Assembly: GCA_025350245.1 (NCBI GenBank)
Contig: JANXYG010000059.1
Span: 1-56,225, forward strand
DNA: 56,225 nucleotides
Reading direction: 5' to 3'
From: Betaproteobacteria bacterium
GTDB lineage: Bacteria > Pseudomonadota > Gammaproteobacteria > Burkholderiales > Ga0077523
Shown: one piece after another, positions 22,024 to 31,085 of the stretch
Layout: each line of letters opens with the position of its first letter
How positions within the stretch are numbered: position 1 is the first letter of the stretch
Made by a program: the position numbers and the translations under genes
The notes under the pieces: generated by a model
Database searches by the model: none
What the model was told of the DNA's origin: nothing
The model's input: only the letters and a program-made list of their open reading frames with translations

Positions 22024-22410
22024 TCAGCTCAGATGGCCGCTGATCAGCTTGGTCATCTCGAACATCGACACCTGCTTCTTGCCGCCAAAGATCAGCTTGA
22101 GCTTGTCGTCGGCGTTGATCATGCGCTTGTTCTTGGCATCCTGAAGTTCGTGCTTCTTGATGTATTCCCAGATTTTCTTGGTAACTTCGGTACGCGGCAG
22201 ACCCTTGTCACCGACCACCGCCGCCAACGTCGGGCTCGGAGTCATCGGTTTCATGAACGCCGCGTTCGGCGTGCGCTTCGCCGCCGGCTGCTTGGCGGCC
22301 GGGGCTACCTTCTTGACAGCGGGTACCACGGCCTTCTTGGCAGGAGCCGCTTTTTTCGCGGCGGGCTTGGCGGCGGGTTTCTTCGCGGCGGGTTTCTTGG
22401 CTACGGCCAT
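22024..22410 (-). CDS. SWIB/MDM2-domain protein with lysine/alanine-rich N-terminal tail
   Basis: A 128-residue protein. Residues 1-45 are KPAAK/KKAAPAKK repeats resembling histone H1 or bacterial Hc1-like tails and should bind DNA. Residues about 55-128 form a SWIB domain (LAAVVGDKGLPRTEVTKKIW and NADDKLKLIFGGKKQVSMFE). Such fusions are common in betaproteobacteria and chlamydiae and are thought to be nucleoid-associated, but no mechanism is established. The start follows a weak GGAG upstream, and a clear terminator lies past the stop. It is intact although flanked by gene remnants on both sides. Confidence 0.93.
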   Translation of the reverse strand: MAVAKKPAAKKPAAKPAAKKAAPAKKAVVPAVKKVAPAAKQPAAKRTPNAAFMKPMTPSPTLAAVVGDKGLPRTEVTKKIWEYIKKHELQDAKNKRMINADDKLKLIFGGKKQVSMFEMTKLISGHLS

Positions 22411-24954: not shown

Positions 24955-26091
24955 TTGAGCTGGATCACCGGCACCGGCCTCACCCCGTTCGGCAAGCACC
25001 CGGGCCGAAGCACGCTCGACCTCATGAGTTCGGCCGCCGCCGCTGCGATCGCCGATGCGGGGCTCGAGCGCCGCGACATCGACGGGTTGCTGACCGGCTA
25101 TTCGACGACCTTTCCGCATCTCATGTTGTCGACGGTGTTCGCCGAGCACTTCGGCCTGAGCCCGCGCTACGCCCACGCCATCCAGCTCGGCGGTGCCACC
25201 GGTTTTGCCATGGTGATGCTGGCGCATCACCTGGTCGAGGCTCATCTTGCCGACCACGTTCTGGTGGTTGCCGGCGAAAACCGGCTCACCGGCCAGACCC
25301 GCGATGCCGCGGTGCAGGCTCTCGCGCAAGTGGGGCACCCCCGCTACGAAGTCCCCCTGGGAGCGACCATCCCGGCCTACTATGGCTTGGTGGCCACCCG
25401 CTACATGCACGAGTTCGGCGTCACCGAGGCCGACTTCGCCGAACTGTCGGTGCTCATGCGGGGGCACGCCTCGGAACACCCCGACGCACAGTTCCGCGAA
25501 CCGATCACCGTGGCCGACGTCCTGGCCTCGAAACCGGTGGCCTCCCCGCTCAAGCTGCTCGACTGCTGCCCGGTATCGGACGGCGGCGCGGCCTTCGTGG
25601 TCAGCCGCGAGCGCATCAACGACATCGCGGTGCGCATCGTCGGCACCGGCCAGGCCCACACCCATCAGCACATCTCGGCGGCGCCGAGCCTGACGCACTT
25701 CGGCGCAGCGGCATCGGCATCGACCGCGCTCGACGCGGCCGGCAGCACGCTCGACGACATCGGCTATCTCGCGATCTACGACAGCTTCACCATCACCATC
25801 ACCATCCTGCTCGAGGAGCTCGGCCTCGCCCCGCGTGCCGGCGCCGCGGAGATCGCGCGCACCGGCGGCTTCTCGCGCGGCGGCGCCAAGCCGCTCAACA
25901 CCCACGGCGGCCTACTGTCCTACGGACATTGCGGGGTCGGCGGGGCTATGGCCCACCTGGTCGAAGCGCATCGACAGCTCACCGGACGCTGCGGTCCGCG
26001 ACAGGTCACCGATCCACGGCGCGCCCTGCTGCACGGCGACGGTGGCGTGCTGTCGTCACACGTTTCGCTCGTGATCGAGAGTGCCGCATGA
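24955..26091 (+). CDS. Thiolase-superfamily protein lacking the nucleophilic Cys (Ltp2/SCP-x type)
   Basis: About 378 residues with the thiolase fold. The usual active-site Cys segment is replaced by AIQLGGATGFAMVMLAHHL (residues about 75-93), with Gly/Ala in place of Cys. The C-terminal loop is PLNTHGGLLSYGHCGVGGAM, in which His and Cys remain. This pattern is typical of SCP-x-like thiolases and of the Ltp2 side-chain aldolases, which pair with DUF35 proteins. A TTG at 24955 is the best start; no ATG fits and no strong ribosome site is seen. Its stop overlaps the ATG of the DUF35 gene (ATGA), which supports complex formation. The reaction is uncertain: thiolytic or retro-aldol cleavage of an acyl-CoA. 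Confidence 0.85.
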   Translation: MSWITGTGLTPFGKHPGRSTLDLMSSAAAAAIADAGLERRDIDGLLTGYSTTFPHLMLSTVFAEHFGLSPRYAHAIQLGGATGFAMVMLAHHLVEAHLADHVLVVAGENRLTGQTRDAAVQALAQVGHPRYEVPLGATIPAYYGLVATRYMHEFGVTEADFAELSVLMRGHASEHPDAQFREPITVADVLASKPVASPLKLLDCCPVSDGGAAFVVSRERINDIAVRIVGTGQAHTHQHISAAPSLTHFGAAASASTALDAAGSTLDDIGYLAIYDSFTITITILLEELGLAPRAGAAEIARTGGFSRGGAKPLNTHGGLLSYGHCGVGGAMAHLVEAHRQLTGRCGPRQVTDPRRALLHGDGGVLSSHVSLVIESAA

Positions 26092-26456
26092 GCAACGGCG
26101 ACGAGATTCTCGACTGGTCGACCGGCAGCGAGGGCATCGCCTATCAGCGATGCGACGACTGCGGTCACGTCTGGTACCTGACACGAGCGTTCTGCGCCAC
26201 TTGCGGCAGCCTCGCCGTGCGGCAGCATCAGGCCGCCGGCCTGGGTCGTGTCGCGACCACGACGCTGGTGTCGCGCCCGCCGAGCGAGAAGTGGAAGGAA
26301 TACGCTCCCTATTCCCTGGCGCTGATCGACGCCGACGAAGGTTTCCGGTTGATGGCGCACGTCGAGCGCGATGCGCGCATCGGTGATCGCGTGCGCGCAC
26401 GTTACCTCTCTTTCGAAGACACTCCGATTCCCGTTTTCATGTGTACCGACCCATGA
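26088..26456 (+). CDS. DUF35 zinc-ribbon/OB-fold acyl-CoA-associated protein
   Basis: A 122-residue protein. The rubredoxin-like zinc ribbon is CDDCGHVWYLTRAFCATCG (residues about 22-40), followed by an OB fold (VATTTLVSRPPSEKW, then PYSLALIDADEGFRLMAHV). DUF35 proteins bind acyl-CoA and stabilise thiolase-like partners, as ChsH2 does for Ltp2 and as archaeal acetoacetyl-CoA thiolase complexes do. Both ends overlap neighbours by ATGA: the thiolase stop with this start, and this stop with the synthetase start at 26453. That implies translational coupling of all three. Confidence 0.92.
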   Translation: MSNGDEILDWSTGSEGIAYQRCDDCGHVWYLTRAFCATCGSLAVRQHQAAGLGRVATTTLVSRPPSEKWKEYAPYSLALIDADEGFRLMAHVERDARIGDRVRARYLSFEDTPIPVFMCTDP

Positions 26457-28531
26457 ATGAAGGCCTGCGCGCCGCGCTCGACCCCCGCTCCATCGCCGTG
26501 ATCGGCGCGTCCGAACATCCCGACAAGATCGGCGGCCGGCCGCTCTTCTATCTCGCCCGCCACGGCTATCGGGGCAAGGTCTACGCGATCAATCCCAAAC
26601 GCACCCAAACCCAGGGATTCCCGACCGTGCCCTCGCTCGACGACCTGCCGAGCGCGCCCGATGCGGCGATTGTCGTGGTTCCGGGCGAAGCGGCGATCGC
26701 GGCGGTGGAGCACTGCGCTCGCATCGGCGTGAAAGCGTGCGTGACCATGACCTCGGGCTTCGGCGAGACCGGCACCGCGGCCGGCAAGGCAGCCGAAGCG
26801 CGCATGGTCGCAGCGGCCCGCGCCGGCGGCATGCGCATGATCGGGCCGAACGCCCAGGGTCTGGCGAACTTCGGCAACGGCGCGATCCTCTCGTTCTCGT
26901 CGATGTTCATCGAAACGCCCCCCATGGACGGCCCGGTGGGGGTGGTGAGCCAGAGCGGCGCGATGAGCGTGGTGCCCTACGGCATGTTGCGCGCCCGCGG
27001 CATCGGCGTGCGCTACGCCAATGCCACCGGCAACGACGCCGACGTGAGCGTTGCCGAGGTCGCCGCCGCGGTCGCGGAGGATCCGGCGGTGCGCCTGCTC
27101 CTGCTCTACCTCGAGAGCATCGCCGATCCAGCCGCATTGGCCGAGGCAGCGCGCATCGCGCGCGATCGCGGTCTGCCGATCGTGGCACTCAAGTCCGGAC
27201 GCACGGCCGCCGGCCAGCAGGCGGCACAGTCGCACACGGGTGCGCTTGCCAATGAAGACCGTGTCGTCGACGAATTCTTCCGGCAACACGGCATCTGGCG
27301 CGCCGCCGATCTGCGCGAACTGGTGCAGTGCACGGAGCTCTATCTCAAGGGTTGGAAACCGTCCGGCCGCAGGCTGGTGGCCATCAGCAATTCAGGCGCG
27401 GTGTGCGTGCTCGCGGCCGACGCCGCCTCCCGCCTCGGCATGCCGATGGCAGCACTCGCTGCCGACACCAAGGCAGCCATGGCGGCGGCGCTGCCGTCGT
27501 TCGCGACGTCGACCAACCCGATCGACCTCACCGCCGCGTTGCTCACCAACAGCCGCCTGTTCGGCGACATCCTGCCGATCCTGGCGCGCGACCCGGCCGC
27601 CGACGCCTTCCTGATCGGCCTGCCGGTTGCCGGTGCCGCCTACGATGTCGACGCCTTCGCGCGCGACACCGCGGCGTTCGCGGCCACGACCGGCAAACCG
27701 ACGGTCGCCGCCATCCCGCAGCCGTCGGTGGCGGCGCCGTTCCGCGCGGCCGGCATTCCGGTGTTCGAGACCGAGGGCGAGGCGGTGGCGGCATTGGCGC
27801 AGTTCGCCGCGCATCACGAACGCATGCGATGCGCCCGCGGCGGCGATGCGGCCCGACCACTGCCTGTGGCGGAGTTCCACTCGCTGAACGAAGCCGAGAG
27901 CCTTGCCGTGGTAAGCGCAGCGGGCCTGCCGGTGGTACCACATCGACAGTGCCACACCGCGGACGAAGCCGTTGCCGCGATGGCCGCGATCGGCGCACCA
28001 GTCGCCGTCAAAGGTTGTTCGAGGGAGGTCGCGCACAAGTCCGAGTTCGGCCTGGTACGGCTGCATCTGAACAACGAAGCCGCGGTTCGAGCGGCATTCA
28101 CGGACCTGCGCCATGGCCTCGAGTCGCGTGGCCTCGCTTTCGATGGCGTGATCGTCGCCGCCATGACCTCGGGCCGTCGCGAGCTCATGATCGGTGCTCA
28201 CGTCGATCCGATGTTTGGACCGGTGGTCGTGTTCGGCGACGGCGGCAAATACGTGGAGGTGCTCCCGGATGCCGCGATGCTGCTGCCGCCGTTCGCGCGC
28301 GCCGATGTGCTCGACGCGCTCTCGACCTTGAGGGTGGCGCCGTTGCTGGGTGGCGTGCGCGGCGAACCGGCGATGGATCTCACCGCCTTTGCCGATGCGG
28401 TGGTCGCCGTGGGACAACTGATGCTGGGCAAGGACCAGCCGATCGTGAGTCTCGATATCAACCCGGTCGTGATCGGCAGCGATGGCGCCGGTTGCGTCGC
28501 GCTCGACGCCGTGGCGTTCGTCGGCAAGTGA
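26453..28531 (+). CDS. ADP-forming (NDP-forming) acyl-CoA synthetase
   Basis: A 692-residue fusion of the alpha and beta parts of ADP-forming acyl-CoA synthetases. It has an N-terminal CoA-binding domain ([20 protein letters not shown]), a succinyl-CoA ligase-like flavodoxin domain with the phosphohistidine segment [17 protein letters not shown], and a C-terminal ATP-grasp_5 domain ([20 protein letters not shown], then DINPVVIG near the end). It activates a carboxylic acid with CoA and ATP, or works in reverse. The start at 26453 overlaps the DUF35 stop. Together with the thiolase-like and MaoC genes it suggests catabolism of one particular acyl chain. Confidence 0.93.
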
Positions 28532-28548
28532 ACCTGCCGCGAGAAGCA

Positions 28549-30135
28549 ATGTCACCCCTCGCCGCCGTTGGCGACCTGGACGGCCTCGTGTTCGATAACG
28601 CCTTCGTGCGTGACCTGCCCGGCGATCCGAATCCGGAACCCACCCGGCGGCAGGTGCATGGCGCCTGCTACTCGCGGGTGATGCCCACGCCGGTGGCGGC
28701 GCCGAAACTCATCGCCTGGTCACCGGAAGTCGCCGCGTCGCTCGGCCTGTCGGCCGAGACCATGCGGTCGGATGCGTTCGCGGCGGTGTTCGGCGGCAAT
28801 CGCCTGGTCGCCGGCATGCAACCGTACGCCGCCTGCTACGGCGGGCATCAGTTCGGCAACTGGGCCGGGCAACTCGGTGACGGACGCGCCATCACGCTCG
28901 GCGAAACCATCGACATCGACGGCCGGCGCCAGGAGCTTCAGCTCAAGGGTGCCGGCCCGACCCCGTATTCACGCACCGCCGACGGCCGTGCAGTGCTGCG
29001 CTCGTCGATCCGCGAGTTTCTCTGCAGCGAGGCAATGCACCATCTGGGCGTGCCGACCACCCGGGCGCTGAGCCTGGTCGCCACCGGCGAAACCGTGGTC
29101 CGCGACATGTTCTACGACGGCAACGCGCGACCCGAGCAGGGTGCGATCGTCTGCCGCGTGGCGCCGTCGTTCATCCGCTTCGGCAACTTCGAGATCCTGG
29201 CTGCCCGCGGCGATACGGCACTGCTGCGCAGGCTGGTCGAGTTCACCATCCGGCGCGACTTCGCCGGGATCGACGGCGATGCCGACACGCGCATGGCCCG
29301 CTGGTTCGAAACCGTTTGCCGTCGCACCGCCGTGATGGTTGCCCACTGGCTACGCGTGGGCTTCGTGCACGGGGTGATGAACACCGACAACATGTCGATC
29401 CTCGGTCTCACCATCGACTATGGCCCCTACGGCTGGATCGACGATTTCGATCCCGGGTGGACGCCGAACACCACGGACGCCGCGGGTCGCCGCTATCGCT
29501 TCGGCCAGCAAGCGCAGATCGCCCAATGGAATCTGGTACAGCTCGCGAATGCCCTGGTCTCCCTGTTTTCCTCGACCGCCCCGCTCGCGGCCGGGCTCGA
29601 ATGCTTCGTGGAGACGTTAGAAGCCGAGCAAAGTGCAATGACTGCCGCCAAGCTCGGGTTTACGTCATGTCGCGACACGGACGGCACGCTGGTGGGCGAT
29701 CTCTACCGGTTGATGCAGGATGCCGAAGTCGACATGACGATCTTCTTCCGCGGTCTGGCCGAGGTCGATCTCGCCAGTCCGAGCCTCGAGCCGCTGCGGG
29801 AGGCCTTCTACACCGCAGACAAGCTGGCGGCGTCCGGTCCGGCGTTCGAGCGCTGGCTCGCCGCCTATGCCGGGCGAGCGCTGGACGATGGAACCGCTCC
29901 TGCCGATCGCCGCGCGCGCATGAATGCAGCAAACCCGCGCTTCGTGCTGCGCAACTACCTTGCCCAGCAGGCCATCGATCTGGCCGAACAAGGCGATGCA
30001 TCACTGATAGCGGAGTTGCTCGATGTGCTCCGGCATCCCTACGACGACCAGCCGGGACGAGACCGATTCGCTGAACGCCGACCGGACTGGGCGCGCAATC
30101 GCGCGGGATGCTCGATGCTTTCGTGTAGTTCGTAG
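28549..30135 (+). CDS. selO: Protein adenylyltransferase SelO (YdiU family)
   Basis: A 528-residue pseudokinase-fold AMPylase. It keeps [14 protein letters not shown] (ATP-phosphate Lys), [17 protein letters not shown], and the metal-binding [20 protein letters not shown] and WIDDFDP. The C-terminus is the full family ending [10 protein letters not shown], with Cys in the place where eukaryotic SelO has selenocysteine. SelO AMPylates proteins under oxidative stress and links to glutathionylation. It follows the synthetase gene by 17 bases and is probably cotranscribed, though its function is separate. The ATG at 28549 with weak GAGAAG is preferred over any longer form. Confidence 0.95.
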
Positions 30136-30297
30136 GGACGCCACGCCACGGTCAGCCGCTCATCCGTCCGACCGGCACATCGCCACCGCCGATCAGTCCG
30201 AGCCACACCGCGGTGGCGATGACATGACCTTTCATTTACGCTGCGCCGGCATGGGCGATACTTCGGTGAGGACAGTCACGATCGAGGAGCCGTTGAC

Positions 30298-30678
30298 GTG
30301 CCGACGATGACGTTTGCCGACTTCGTGCCAGGTACCGTTCTGGGCAACGACCGCTTCACGGTCGACGCCTGGTGGCTCGCGCAATGGGCAATCGCGGTGC
30401 CGGGGGCGGCGCCGTCACCGGGTGCGATCGCCATGGCACTGGCAATGAGATCGTACCTGAGCATCCTGCGCGACCGCACGCCCGGCAACCTACATGCACG
30501 ACAGCAGCTATCGGTCCGTCGCGCGGTCGCCGCGGGCGATACCGTGATGTCGAGACTCACCTGCGAATCGGCGGAACTGCGCCACGAGCGGCGGCGTGTG
30601 GTGCTTGCGGTGGCTGCCTGTGACGCGCAGGGAGACGCGTTTTTCGAAGCACGCATGACCATATTGTGGGCGCGATGA
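30298..30678 (+). CDS. MaoC-like hotdog-fold protein, N-terminal half-type
   Basis: A 126-residue hotdog protein. It begins TFADFVPGTVLGNDRFTVDA and continues RQQLSVRRAVAAGDTVMSRL with a final ARMTILWA. This resembles the non-catalytic half of split MaoC hydratases, and I see no D-x-N-P-x-H motif in it. A GTG start at 30298 lies 8 bases after GAGGAG; an ATG at 30307 is the alternative. Its stop overlaps the ATG of the next MaoC gene (ATGA), so the two likely form a heteromeric hydratase. It sits 160 bases behind selO in the acyl-CoA module. Confidence 0.78.
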   Translation: MPTMTFADFVPGTVLGNDRFTVDAWWLAQWAIAVPGAAPSPGAIAMALAMRSYLSILRDRTPGNLHARQQLSVRRAVAAGDTVMSRLTCESAELRHERRRVVLAVAACDAQGDAFFEARMTILWAR

Positions 30679-31085
30679 AAGCACCGGATACGCTGGTCGA
30701 GGCAACGCTCGCCGTGGAACATGCGATGCTGGTTGCCTATGGGGCGCTCACTTGCGACTCGAACCCGATACATCTCGACGCCGGGTTCGCGGCGACCACG
30801 CCCTACGGCCGCTGCATCGCCCATGGCACGTTGTCGCTCAACGTGCTGTGGCAGTCCATCGCCGCGACTTTCGACGCGGCGACCGCCGCCCGCCTCGACC
30901 TCGATATCCGCTTCACGGCGCCGGTATTCGTCGGCGAACATCTGGTCGGTGGCGGTGCCCGGATGCCCGGCACCGACACGCGCTACGAGGTCTGGGTCAA
31001 GGCCGGCGATCGAACCGTGATCGCCGGCGAACTCGACCTTCAGCCGGCGGCGCTCAGGCCTTCGGGGCCAGGTATTTCTTCGTGA
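30675..31085 (+). CDS. MaoC-type enoyl-CoA hydratase (catalytic half)
   Basis: A 136-residue hotdog protein carrying the (R)-hydratase 2 motif: CDSNPIHLDAGFAATTPYGR, then CIAHGTLS, with the catalytic Asp and His. It should hydrate a trans-2-enoyl-CoA, probably together with the overlapping upstream half-type protein, as in the ChsH1-ChsH2 arrangement. The last 32 bases overlap the 3' end of the convergent formamidase gene (31054-31085). The ATG at 30675 overlaps the upstream stop, which fixes the start. Confidence 0.9.
   Translation: MKAPDTLVEATLAVEHAMLVAYGALTCDSNPIHLDAGFAATTPYGRCIAHGTLSLNVLWQSIAATFDAATAARLDLDIRFTAPVFVGEHLVGGGARMPGTDTRYEVWVKAGDRTVIAGELDLQPAALRPSGPGISS

Follow-up and report, generated by a model that had tools for sequence, protein, structure and literature searches.

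A conserved gene cassette around a Cys-less thiolase-fold protein, a probable retro-aldolase that is neither an Ltp2 nor a Sal

Introduction

Six genes on the + strand of a betaproteobacterial contig, between positions 24955 and 31085, pose the question of how a protein with the fold of a thiolase, lacking the nucleophilic cysteine (Cys) of that family, might act on thioesters of coenzyme A (CoA). The contig (GenBank assembly GCA_025350245.1, JANXYG010000059.1; 56,225 nucleotides) was analyzed in its entirety, is referred to here as the window, and belongs to a 4.0 Mb genome assembly that is 96% complete. In order, the genes encode the thiolase homologue, a DUF35 protein, an ADP-forming synthetase, the protein adenylyltransferase SelO, and two small proteins termed MaoC1 and MaoC2. 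An original prediction, made from the sequence alone, listed all of these parts except SelO, at coordinates that proved correct, and likened them to the steroid side-chain system in which Ltp2, a DUF35 domain and a heteromeric MaoC hydratase cooperate.

We consider it likely that the five genes other than SelO form a cassette for the chain-shortening of CoA thioesters, with a thiolase-derived retro-aldolase at its center. Judged by its sequence, the thiolase-fold protein probably acts like an Ltp2-type retro-aldolase, yet it belongs to neither Ltp2 nor Sal. The cassette itself is real and conserved. In the open-licence literature consulted, steroid side chains and ibuprofen are the only substrates for which we found a retro-aldol step by such enzymes.

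Results

Gene content of the locus

The gene run comprises the following features, each given with the evidence for its assignment:

24955..26091, + strand: Cys-less thiolase-fold protein, probable retro-aldolase (TTG start, 378 amino acids, no internal stop; Pfam, PDB relatives, motifs, trees, AlphaFold2)
26088..26456, + strand: DUF35 partner with zf-ChsH2 and OB_ChsH2_C domains (Pfam; PDB relatives including 6ok1_B and 9myr_B; Cys positions; adjacency)
26453..28531, + strand: ADP-forming (NDP-forming) acyl-CoA synthetase, single chain (Pfam; TIGR02717; SHTGA motif at residue 260)
28549..30135, + strand: SelO protein adenylyltransferase, not judged a cassette member (NF000658)
30298..30678, + strand: MaoC1, divergent hot-dog protein without a D-x4-H dyad, probable inert substrate-binding subunit (GTG start; no Pfam family)
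30675..31085, + strand: MaoC2, catalytic (R)-hydratase-type subunit with D28-x4-H33 (Pfam; NCBIfam HadB; PDB PhaJ1, 5cpg)

Overlaps of 4 bases join the thiolase homologue to the DUF35 gene, the latter to the synthetase gene, and MaoC1 to MaoC2. The thiolase homologue was recognized by Pfam (Thiolase_C_1, 160 bits; Thiolase_N, 37 bits) and by no NCBIfam thiolase model at its cut-off (best NF004811, 289 vs 421 bits needed); its nearest solved sequence is 4u4e (199 bits), and Thiolase_C_1 matches once over its full length in the source genome, with a second match that is weak and partial. The DUF35 protein carries a C4 zinc ribbon (C22-x2-C25-x10-C36-x2-C39). CoA-binding, ligase and ATP-grasp domains (Pfam CoA_binding_2, Succ_CoA_lig and ATP-grasp_5) together with the SHTGA motif, whose His we take to be the phospho-His, mark the synthetase as an NDP-forming acyl-CoA synthetase, with a score against TIGR02717 (337.8 bits) below the cut-off of 567.

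Active site of the thiolase-fold protein

An alignment of 136 homologues, 117 with a YD motif and 19 with HD, separated the two groups at the catalytic nucleophile: Cys was missing in 117/117 YD rows and kept in 19/19 HD[AC] rows. The window protein displays the motifs GGATG, IYDSFT and SYGHC. Gly80, in GGATG, aligns with the Cys of the thiolase motifs ACATG and ACASG and with Gly89 of CtSal, itself at the thiolase Cys position, while Tyr275 replaces the His of the thiolase HD motif and aligns with the Tyr residues 294 of TcLtp2 and 302 of CtSal. Ser277 falls opposite His296 of TcLtp2 and Cys304 of CtSal, and His325 opposite Tyr344 and Gln352, respectively; the equivalence of these last two residues agrees with that given in PMC12329534. 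The forecast of a thiolase homologue that lacks the nucleophilic Cys and overlaps a DUF35 gene is borne out, the active site is of the aldolase type, and a Cys-dependent, SCP2-type thiolase is ruled out by Gly80 in place of Cys and by Tyr275 in place of the HD[AC]F His.

Across 75 YDS rows (4u4e left out) no variation occurs at Gly80, Tyr143, Tyr275 or Phe278, and 74 of the rows keep His325. All but one of the 117 YD rows (L074) have either Cys at the place of the Sal acid or His/Tyr at that of the Ltp2 acid. From this pattern of residues, His325 appears to be the best candidate for the acid of the window protein. Cys326, which adjoins it in SYGHC, was considered as a relocated acid and dismissed, because Ser or Pro occupies this position in many YDS rows. 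A Vibrio homologue of the Sal type (L145) has a Cys one position beside the lost nucleophile.

Phylogenetic placement

Two trees were computed, a careful tree of 43 rows, four of them Cys thiolases, and a quick tree of 68 rows, with TbSLP in neither. In the careful tree the Cys-less YD rows, including TcLtp2, CtSal and a gene of the ibuprofen plasmid that we read as IpfD, were split from the four Cys thiolases with support of 100/99. The YD side comprised a Sal clade (100/100), a clade of Ltp2, IpfD and L149 (100/99), and a third clade (95/84) of mixed YDS and YDC motifs that contains the window protein and 4u4e. Within the latter, one branch (100/98) unites the window protein with rows from MaoC-bearing cassettes (L103, L104, L107, L109, L140 and L051, of which only L051 is YDC), and 4u4e and L133 form a branch of their own. 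Membership of the window protein in the Ltp2 or Sal clade is thus ruled out, since both well-supported clades exclude it; the original prediction had named placement outside Ltp2-like clades as its refutation, which in this narrow sense applies, and the catalytic positions Ser277 and His325 differ as well. With the broad Cys-less YD group the window protein shares the absent Cys, the YD motif, the DUF35 neighbor and the split from Cys thiolases; whether that group is a single clade depends on the root. Long branches affected three rows of the quick tree and one (BbsB) of the careful tree, in which three thiolase rows also had odd composition.

Predicted fold

An AlphaFold2 model built from a 31-row alignment (predicted local distance difference score, pLDDT, 91.9; predicted template modeling score 0.93) found its nearest solved fold in TbSLP (Z 53.0 over 367 residues, 1.8 A), followed by archaeal acetoacetyl-CoA thiolase 6esq (Z 52.2), Sal (50.3), thiolase 7yvy (50.1) and Ltp2 (48.5). 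TbSLP, an SCP2-thiolase-like protein (PDB 5ab4-5ab7), is likewise Cys-less with a YD motif, and differs in being eukaryotic and in its YDCF; it has been proposed as an aldolase (PMC12329534).

The MaoC pair

MaoC2 (Pfam MaoC_dehydratas, 55 bits) bears the dyad motif D28-SNPI-H33, of which D, N, P and H are invariant across seven aligned rows; it scored 34.7 bits against NCBIfam HadB, below the cut-off of 203, and has PhaJ1 (5cpg) as a PDB relative. MaoC1 showed neither a D-x4-H motif nor a match to any Pfam family. Its kinship rests on a predicted model, since a search of PDB sequences gave chance matches only: the AlphaFold2 model is a hot-dog fold (pLDDT 89.2) whose best matches are the HadA chains of HadAB (Z 13.2, 123 residues, 3.0 A, roughly 15-17% identity), tied within 1 Z unit with 1q6w and other MaoC-type chains, while chain 4w78_B of ChsH1-ChsH2 gave Z 11.9 and many hot-dog thioesterases Z 10 to 11. 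On the strength of its sequence and model, MaoC1 is probably an inert substrate-binding subunit. The pair therefore has the composition of a heteromeric hydratase, one subunit with D-x4-H and one hot-dog subunit without, and the predicted division into an inert and a catalytic MaoC protein holds.

HadAB and HadBC dehydratases offer a parallel, combining an inert hot-dog subunit with a catalytic one, MaoC1 being best matched by HadA chains and HadB being the nearest NCBIfam model for MaoC2 (below cut-off); they differ in the low identity noted for MaoC1 and in their substrates, mycolic precursors bound to acyl carrier protein. We know of no aldolase partner of HadAB or HadBC. HadA and HadC have been reported to be non-catalytic partners of HadB (PMC11321319); among the PDB matches, 4rlj lists HadB as its chain B.

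MaoC2 adjoins MaoC1 in nearly all MaoC1 loci; at L108, MaoC1 (28 bits) occurs without it. MaoC1 homologues have a common R-x-x-G-x-x-H-x-x-Q core and, in those checked, no Pfam match over cut-off: of five further proteins compared with Pfam, four MaoC1 homologues or neighbors fell below the cut-offs and one, of MaoC2 type, was identified as MaoC. These homologues may constitute an unnamed hot-dog family, a candidate for a model of its own.

Conservation and linkage of the cassette

Loci were termed near where the thiolase match exceeded 440 bits and far at 250-440 bits; they were counted by locus, only where sufficient flank was present, and from profile matches, ORF (open reading frame) calls having given wrong strands in very GC-rich loci. 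Homologues of the thiolase-fold protein (E 1e-30 or better) occurred in 19/59 relatives beyond the source genome, 12 of them with a copy of at least 62% identity. DUF35 lay within 1.5 kb in 84/86 loci (51/53 near and 33/33 far), and the synthetase within 6 kb in 30/48 near and 4/28 far loci. Thiolase homologue, DUF35, MaoC1 and MaoC2 were contiguous in nine loci (L051, L103, L104, L107, L109, L136, L140, L163 and L164), and in Paracoccaceae La 6 (L138) the order synthetase-MaoC1-MaoC2-thiolase-DUF35 forms a single overlapping run. The pair lay within 8 kb of the thiolase homologue at near loci L038, L040, L057 and L081 and at far loci L051, L103, L104, L107 and L109, and at 20.6 kb in genome G005; in L136, L138 and L140 it is plasmid-borne.

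A search starting from MaoC1, covering 369 genomes across the class with at most 11 candidates scored per genome, found it in four, the source genome included. Each of the five foreign matches had a thiolase homologue at a distance of 0.46 to 2.8 kb (on the opposite strand in G402), and the four homologues that were read (all except that of G215 C30) were Cys-less YD proteins (YDC twice, YDA and YDS). The naive chance of such linkage, 2e-9, overstates the case because two of the three foreign genomes share a genus. Thiolase, DUF35 and MaoC parts are linked in distant genomes, and DUF35 adjacency is conserved.

Several loci displayed further arrangements. A second Cys-less thiolase homologue with DUF35, bearing a YDA motif, adjoins the first in Roseococcus (L065:11541-13216) and in two betaproteobacterial loci (L085 and L086:7225-8741). 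In 17 loci among L058-L080, mostly Bradyrhizobium, a Cys-dependent thiolase (NACATG, HDCF) precedes the Cys-less thiolase-DUF35 pair, with a CaiB-type CoA transferase between the two at L058. At a more distant YDCF locus (L112:9104-9972) two short genes, MaoC-like by eye, lie just upstream of thiolase-DUF35, the second having relatives in five loci.

SelO inside the run

The SelO gene is complete (NF000658, 599.7 bits vs a cut-off of 431), and its place between synthetase and MaoC pair was found only in the source genome. In the original prediction the pair follows the other genes, with SelO left unmentioned; its overlap and its inert and catalytic members stand. None of 98 related loci, three of them duplicates, carries SelO; 9/11 other genomes of the genus have one copy elsewhere, and in the other two none was seen. 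SelO was for this reason ruled out as a cassette member, and its position seems likely to be a lineage-specific rearrangement.

Neighboring genes and substrate

At the Salipiger aestuarii locus (L103, flanks read by eye) two acyl-CoA dehydrogenase-like genes and a hydratase-like gene accompany thiolase, DUF35, MaoC1, MaoC2, synthetase and a TRAP-like transporter, and the existing annotation of Roseovarius indicus (L136) shows a set of like composition; acyl-CoA dehydrogenases, hydratase/isomerase and TRAP transporters also occur at L107 (by eye). By analogy with the igr parts list (ChsE1E2, ChsH1H2 and Ltp2; PMC12502768), the L103 and L136 sets follow igr logic without the steroid context.

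Among 48 near loci, 28 had a synthetase alone, 13 a CaiB-type CoA transferase alone, two both and five neither. That the two enzymes seldom co-occur suggests CoA activation, by either, as the fixed need; the 13 CaiB-only loci, however, are all Bradyrhizobium by record title and count as a single lineage, so that a Fisher p value for the pattern carries no evidential weight. Within 8 kb of 62 near rows the recurrent families were IclR (24), tripartite tricarboxylate receptor (20), CaiB (18), dehydrogenase (15), SDR (10), AtuA-like (7) and AMP ligase (6), searched with seeds taken from plasmid loci, some of which also belong to the 62 rows; they indicated no single substrate. Tripartite tricarboxylate, TRAP and Liv transporters are among the neighbors at other loci. 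On plasmids of a Paracoccaceae strain (L138:11162-19122) and of the actinobacterium Cnuibacter (L141:3487-7206) the aldolase genes have split transketolase genes, a glycerol dehydrogenase gene and dehydrogenase genes as neighbors. This hints that the acid may come from a sugar or polyol, but no pathway could be derived from it.

Steroid genes had been reported as not seen. Two queries taken from a Vibrio plasmid with genes of the Ltp2 and Sal types point weakly in the same direction: its CoA-transferase gave three matches of 29-35% identity in the source genome and its VOC protein none, in a comparison without a positive control genome. The substrate of the cassette is probably not a steroid.

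The gene upstream of the run encodes a divergent glycosyltransferase and that downstream a convergent acetamidase/formamidase-family protein, whose 3' end overlaps that of MaoC2 by 32 bases (31054-31085). A 128-residue protein with a Lys/Ala-rich start and, by eye, a SWIB-like end is encoded at 22024-22410 of the window, and is found near the thiolase homologue in five relatives (L043-L047).

Comparison with known systems

With Ltp2-ChsH2(DUF35) and ChsH1-ChsH2 (PDB 6ok1, 4w78) the window shares a Cys-less thiolase fold, a YD motif with the catalytic Tyr, a DUF35 partner, an inert and a catalytic MaoC protein and, in related operons, acyl-CoA dehydrogenases. It differs in having YDSF for YDHF, His325 for Tyr344 and a clade of its own; in a DUF35 encoded separately, whereas that of the Ltp2 system is fused to the inert MaoC; and in its ADP-forming synthetase, with no steroid genes found. 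Ltp2 forms an alpha2beta2 complex with DUF35; the putative pairing in the window shows in gene adjacency.

CtSal-CtShy, a bile acid aldolase and hydratase (PDB 9myr), is similarly Cys-less with a catalytic Tyr and a DUF35 partner, and Tyr165 and Gly391 of CtSal, like Gly89, have counterparts in the window protein (Tyr143 and Gly364). The window protein departs from it by Ser277 for the essential Cys304, leaving no YDCY dyad, by His325 for Gln352 and by Leu320 for Gln347; its DUF35 ribbon is C4, that of the Sal partner Cys3His1 (PMC12329534); and its hydratase is a two-gene pair, CtShy a homodimer fused to DUF35.

A non-steroid precedent is IpfD-IpfE of ibuprofen degradation, where a CoA ligase, a Cys-less thiolase homologue and DUF35 take part and a retro-aldolase step frees propionyl-CoA (PMC9195938). 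On the plasmid concerned, pIBU218, a gene of the Ltp2 clade adjoins DUF35, and it is this gene that we read as IpfD. It differs from the window protein in that clade (YDHF..EAY) and in that its dihydrodiol is made by a dioxygenase, not a MaoC hydratase. The putative thiolase 4u4e of Sphaerobacter thermophilus shares the third clade and YDSF, and differs in its own branch with L133. The main text on Sal (PMC12329534) makes no mention of YDS, 4u4e, Sphaerobacter, ibuprofen or IpfD.

Discussion

The reading that we prefer is founded on the genes present, the missing Cys, the Tyr that replaces His, the predicted fold, the clade and the conserved linkage. From these we infer complexes, a hydration, a retro-aldol reaction and residue roles, as follows. 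The synthetase would convert a free acid to its acyl-CoA; should the substrate arrive as an enoyl-CoA, or become one by dehydrogenation, a heterodimer of MaoC1 and MaoC2 would hydrate it to the 3-hydroxyacyl-CoA, MaoC2 giving the Asp/His dyad and MaoC1 the pocket; and the thiolase-fold protein with DUF35 would cut the C2-C3 bond in a retro-aldol reaction to yield acetyl-CoA or propionyl-CoA and an aldehyde or ketone, with Tyr275 as the putative base on the 3-hydroxyl and His325 as the candidate acid. Of the Ltp2-like chain-shortening module originally proposed, the active site, DUF35 neighbor, MaoC pair and linkage are retained, and the placement in the Ltp2 clade is given up.

A number of observations weigh against this reading. 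Fold alone separates aldolase from thiolase poorly, because the Cys thiolases 6esq and 7yvy rank among or above Sal and Ltp2. In CtSal the substitutions Y302F, C304A, C304S and C304H left activity undetectable (PMC12329534), and since the window protein has Ser277 at the Cys304 site, its acid must differ from that of Sal; the YD exception L074 has Gln at the His325 position, and the MaoC-linked relatives L051, L157 and L158 carry the Cys, with Ser at the place of His. The YDS rows are not one clade, because starred branches of the quick tree mean that the YDS label changed no fewer than two times. Approximately unbiased tests of the deep clade order rejected no joining for the window group, whether to Ltp2 (p 0.062), to Sal (p 0.057) or to the Cys thiolases (p 0.118). 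No acyl-CoA dehydrogenase lies in the gene run of the window. Finally, the MaoC pair is set apart from the synthetase by SelO, lies within 8 kb of the thiolase homologue in only 4/48 near loci, and occurs in 5/15 genomes examined (source genome included), which were picked for having or lacking the thiolase. Given this rarity of MaoC1 in the genus, the pair is an optional part; as a set, then, the predicted parts list keeps its DUF35 neighbor and loses the MaoC pair in most close orthologues.

These last facts lead to an alternative that we hold possible, if rather unlikely: synthetase, aldolase and DUF35 would be the full unit, acting on a 3-hydroxy acid, and the MaoC pair separate or optional. 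The frequency of the synthetase at near loci compared with that of the pair, the CaiB-type transferase that often stands in for a missing synthetase in Bradyrhizobium, the intervening SelO, and three-gene operons without MaoC on Cnuibacter and Methylobacterium plasmids all favor it. Against it, none of the five foreign MaoC1 matches in the class sample lay away from a thiolase homologue, and, more weakly given how the genomes were chosen, four same-genus relatives have the pair on the thiolase contig, 5.9 to 20.6 kb distant.

It is improbable, in our estimation, that the thiolase-fold protein is some other Cys-independent enzyme, such as an acyl-CoA decarboxylase, or a scaffold. Ser277 in place of a Cys essential in CtSal would fit such a role, as would the finding that TbSLP decarboxylates malonyl-CoA, though very slowly (0.005 per s; PMC12329534); the invariance of Tyr275 and Gly80 in 75 YDS rows speaks against it, and hydratase neighbors make a 3-hydroxyacyl-CoA the natural substrate. 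Operation in the synthetic direction, with the enolate of acetyl- or propionyl-CoA adding to a carbonyl compound in an aldol reaction, we regard as very unlikely: the chemistry is reversible, and other thiolase-fold/DUF35 complexes, PhlABC and archaeal thiolase/HMG-CoA synthase (3-hydroxy-3-methylglutaryl-CoA synthase), are biosynthetic, whereas the adjoining transporters, acyl-CoA dehydrogenases and CoA-activating enzymes indicate catabolism. A steroid side-chain cassette, as for Ltp2 and Sal, has a parts list equal to chsE1E2-chsH1H2-ltp2 in its favor (PMC12502768) and is scarcely credible in view of the position outside both steroid clades, the Vibrio-plasmid queries, the single full-length Thiolase_C_1 match in the source genome, and the tripartite tricarboxylate, TRAP and Liv transporters elsewhere.

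Returning to the chain-shortening cassette, we suggest more tentatively, as a possibility short of likely, that it represents a third mode of catalysis among retro-aldolases of the thiolase fold, using Tyr275 and His325 and having Ser where Sal has its Cys, distributed among soil and marine Proteobacteria and on an actinobacterial plasmid. A three-gene unit of CoA-activating enzyme, aldolase and DUF35 would cut small 3-hydroxy or beta-branched acids as a general route beside beta-oxidation, and the hydratase pair, with its unnamed inert hot-dog family, would be added for unsaturated acids. Among the rows listed, public records label relatives as thiolase, thiolase family protein or acetyl-CoA acetyltransferase. 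Should our preferred reading be right, those that lack the Cys would not be thiolases and would be incapable of the last step of beta-oxidation, cutting carbon chains by a retro-aldol reaction instead, and pathway predictions would change for common soil and marine genera. The cassette would also offer a non-steroid model, with separate small subunits, for cooperation of DUF35, inert MaoC and aldolase, as well as new aldolases for synthesis, and its Ser/His active site amounts to a clean natural experiment on the identity of the residue that protonates the enolate.

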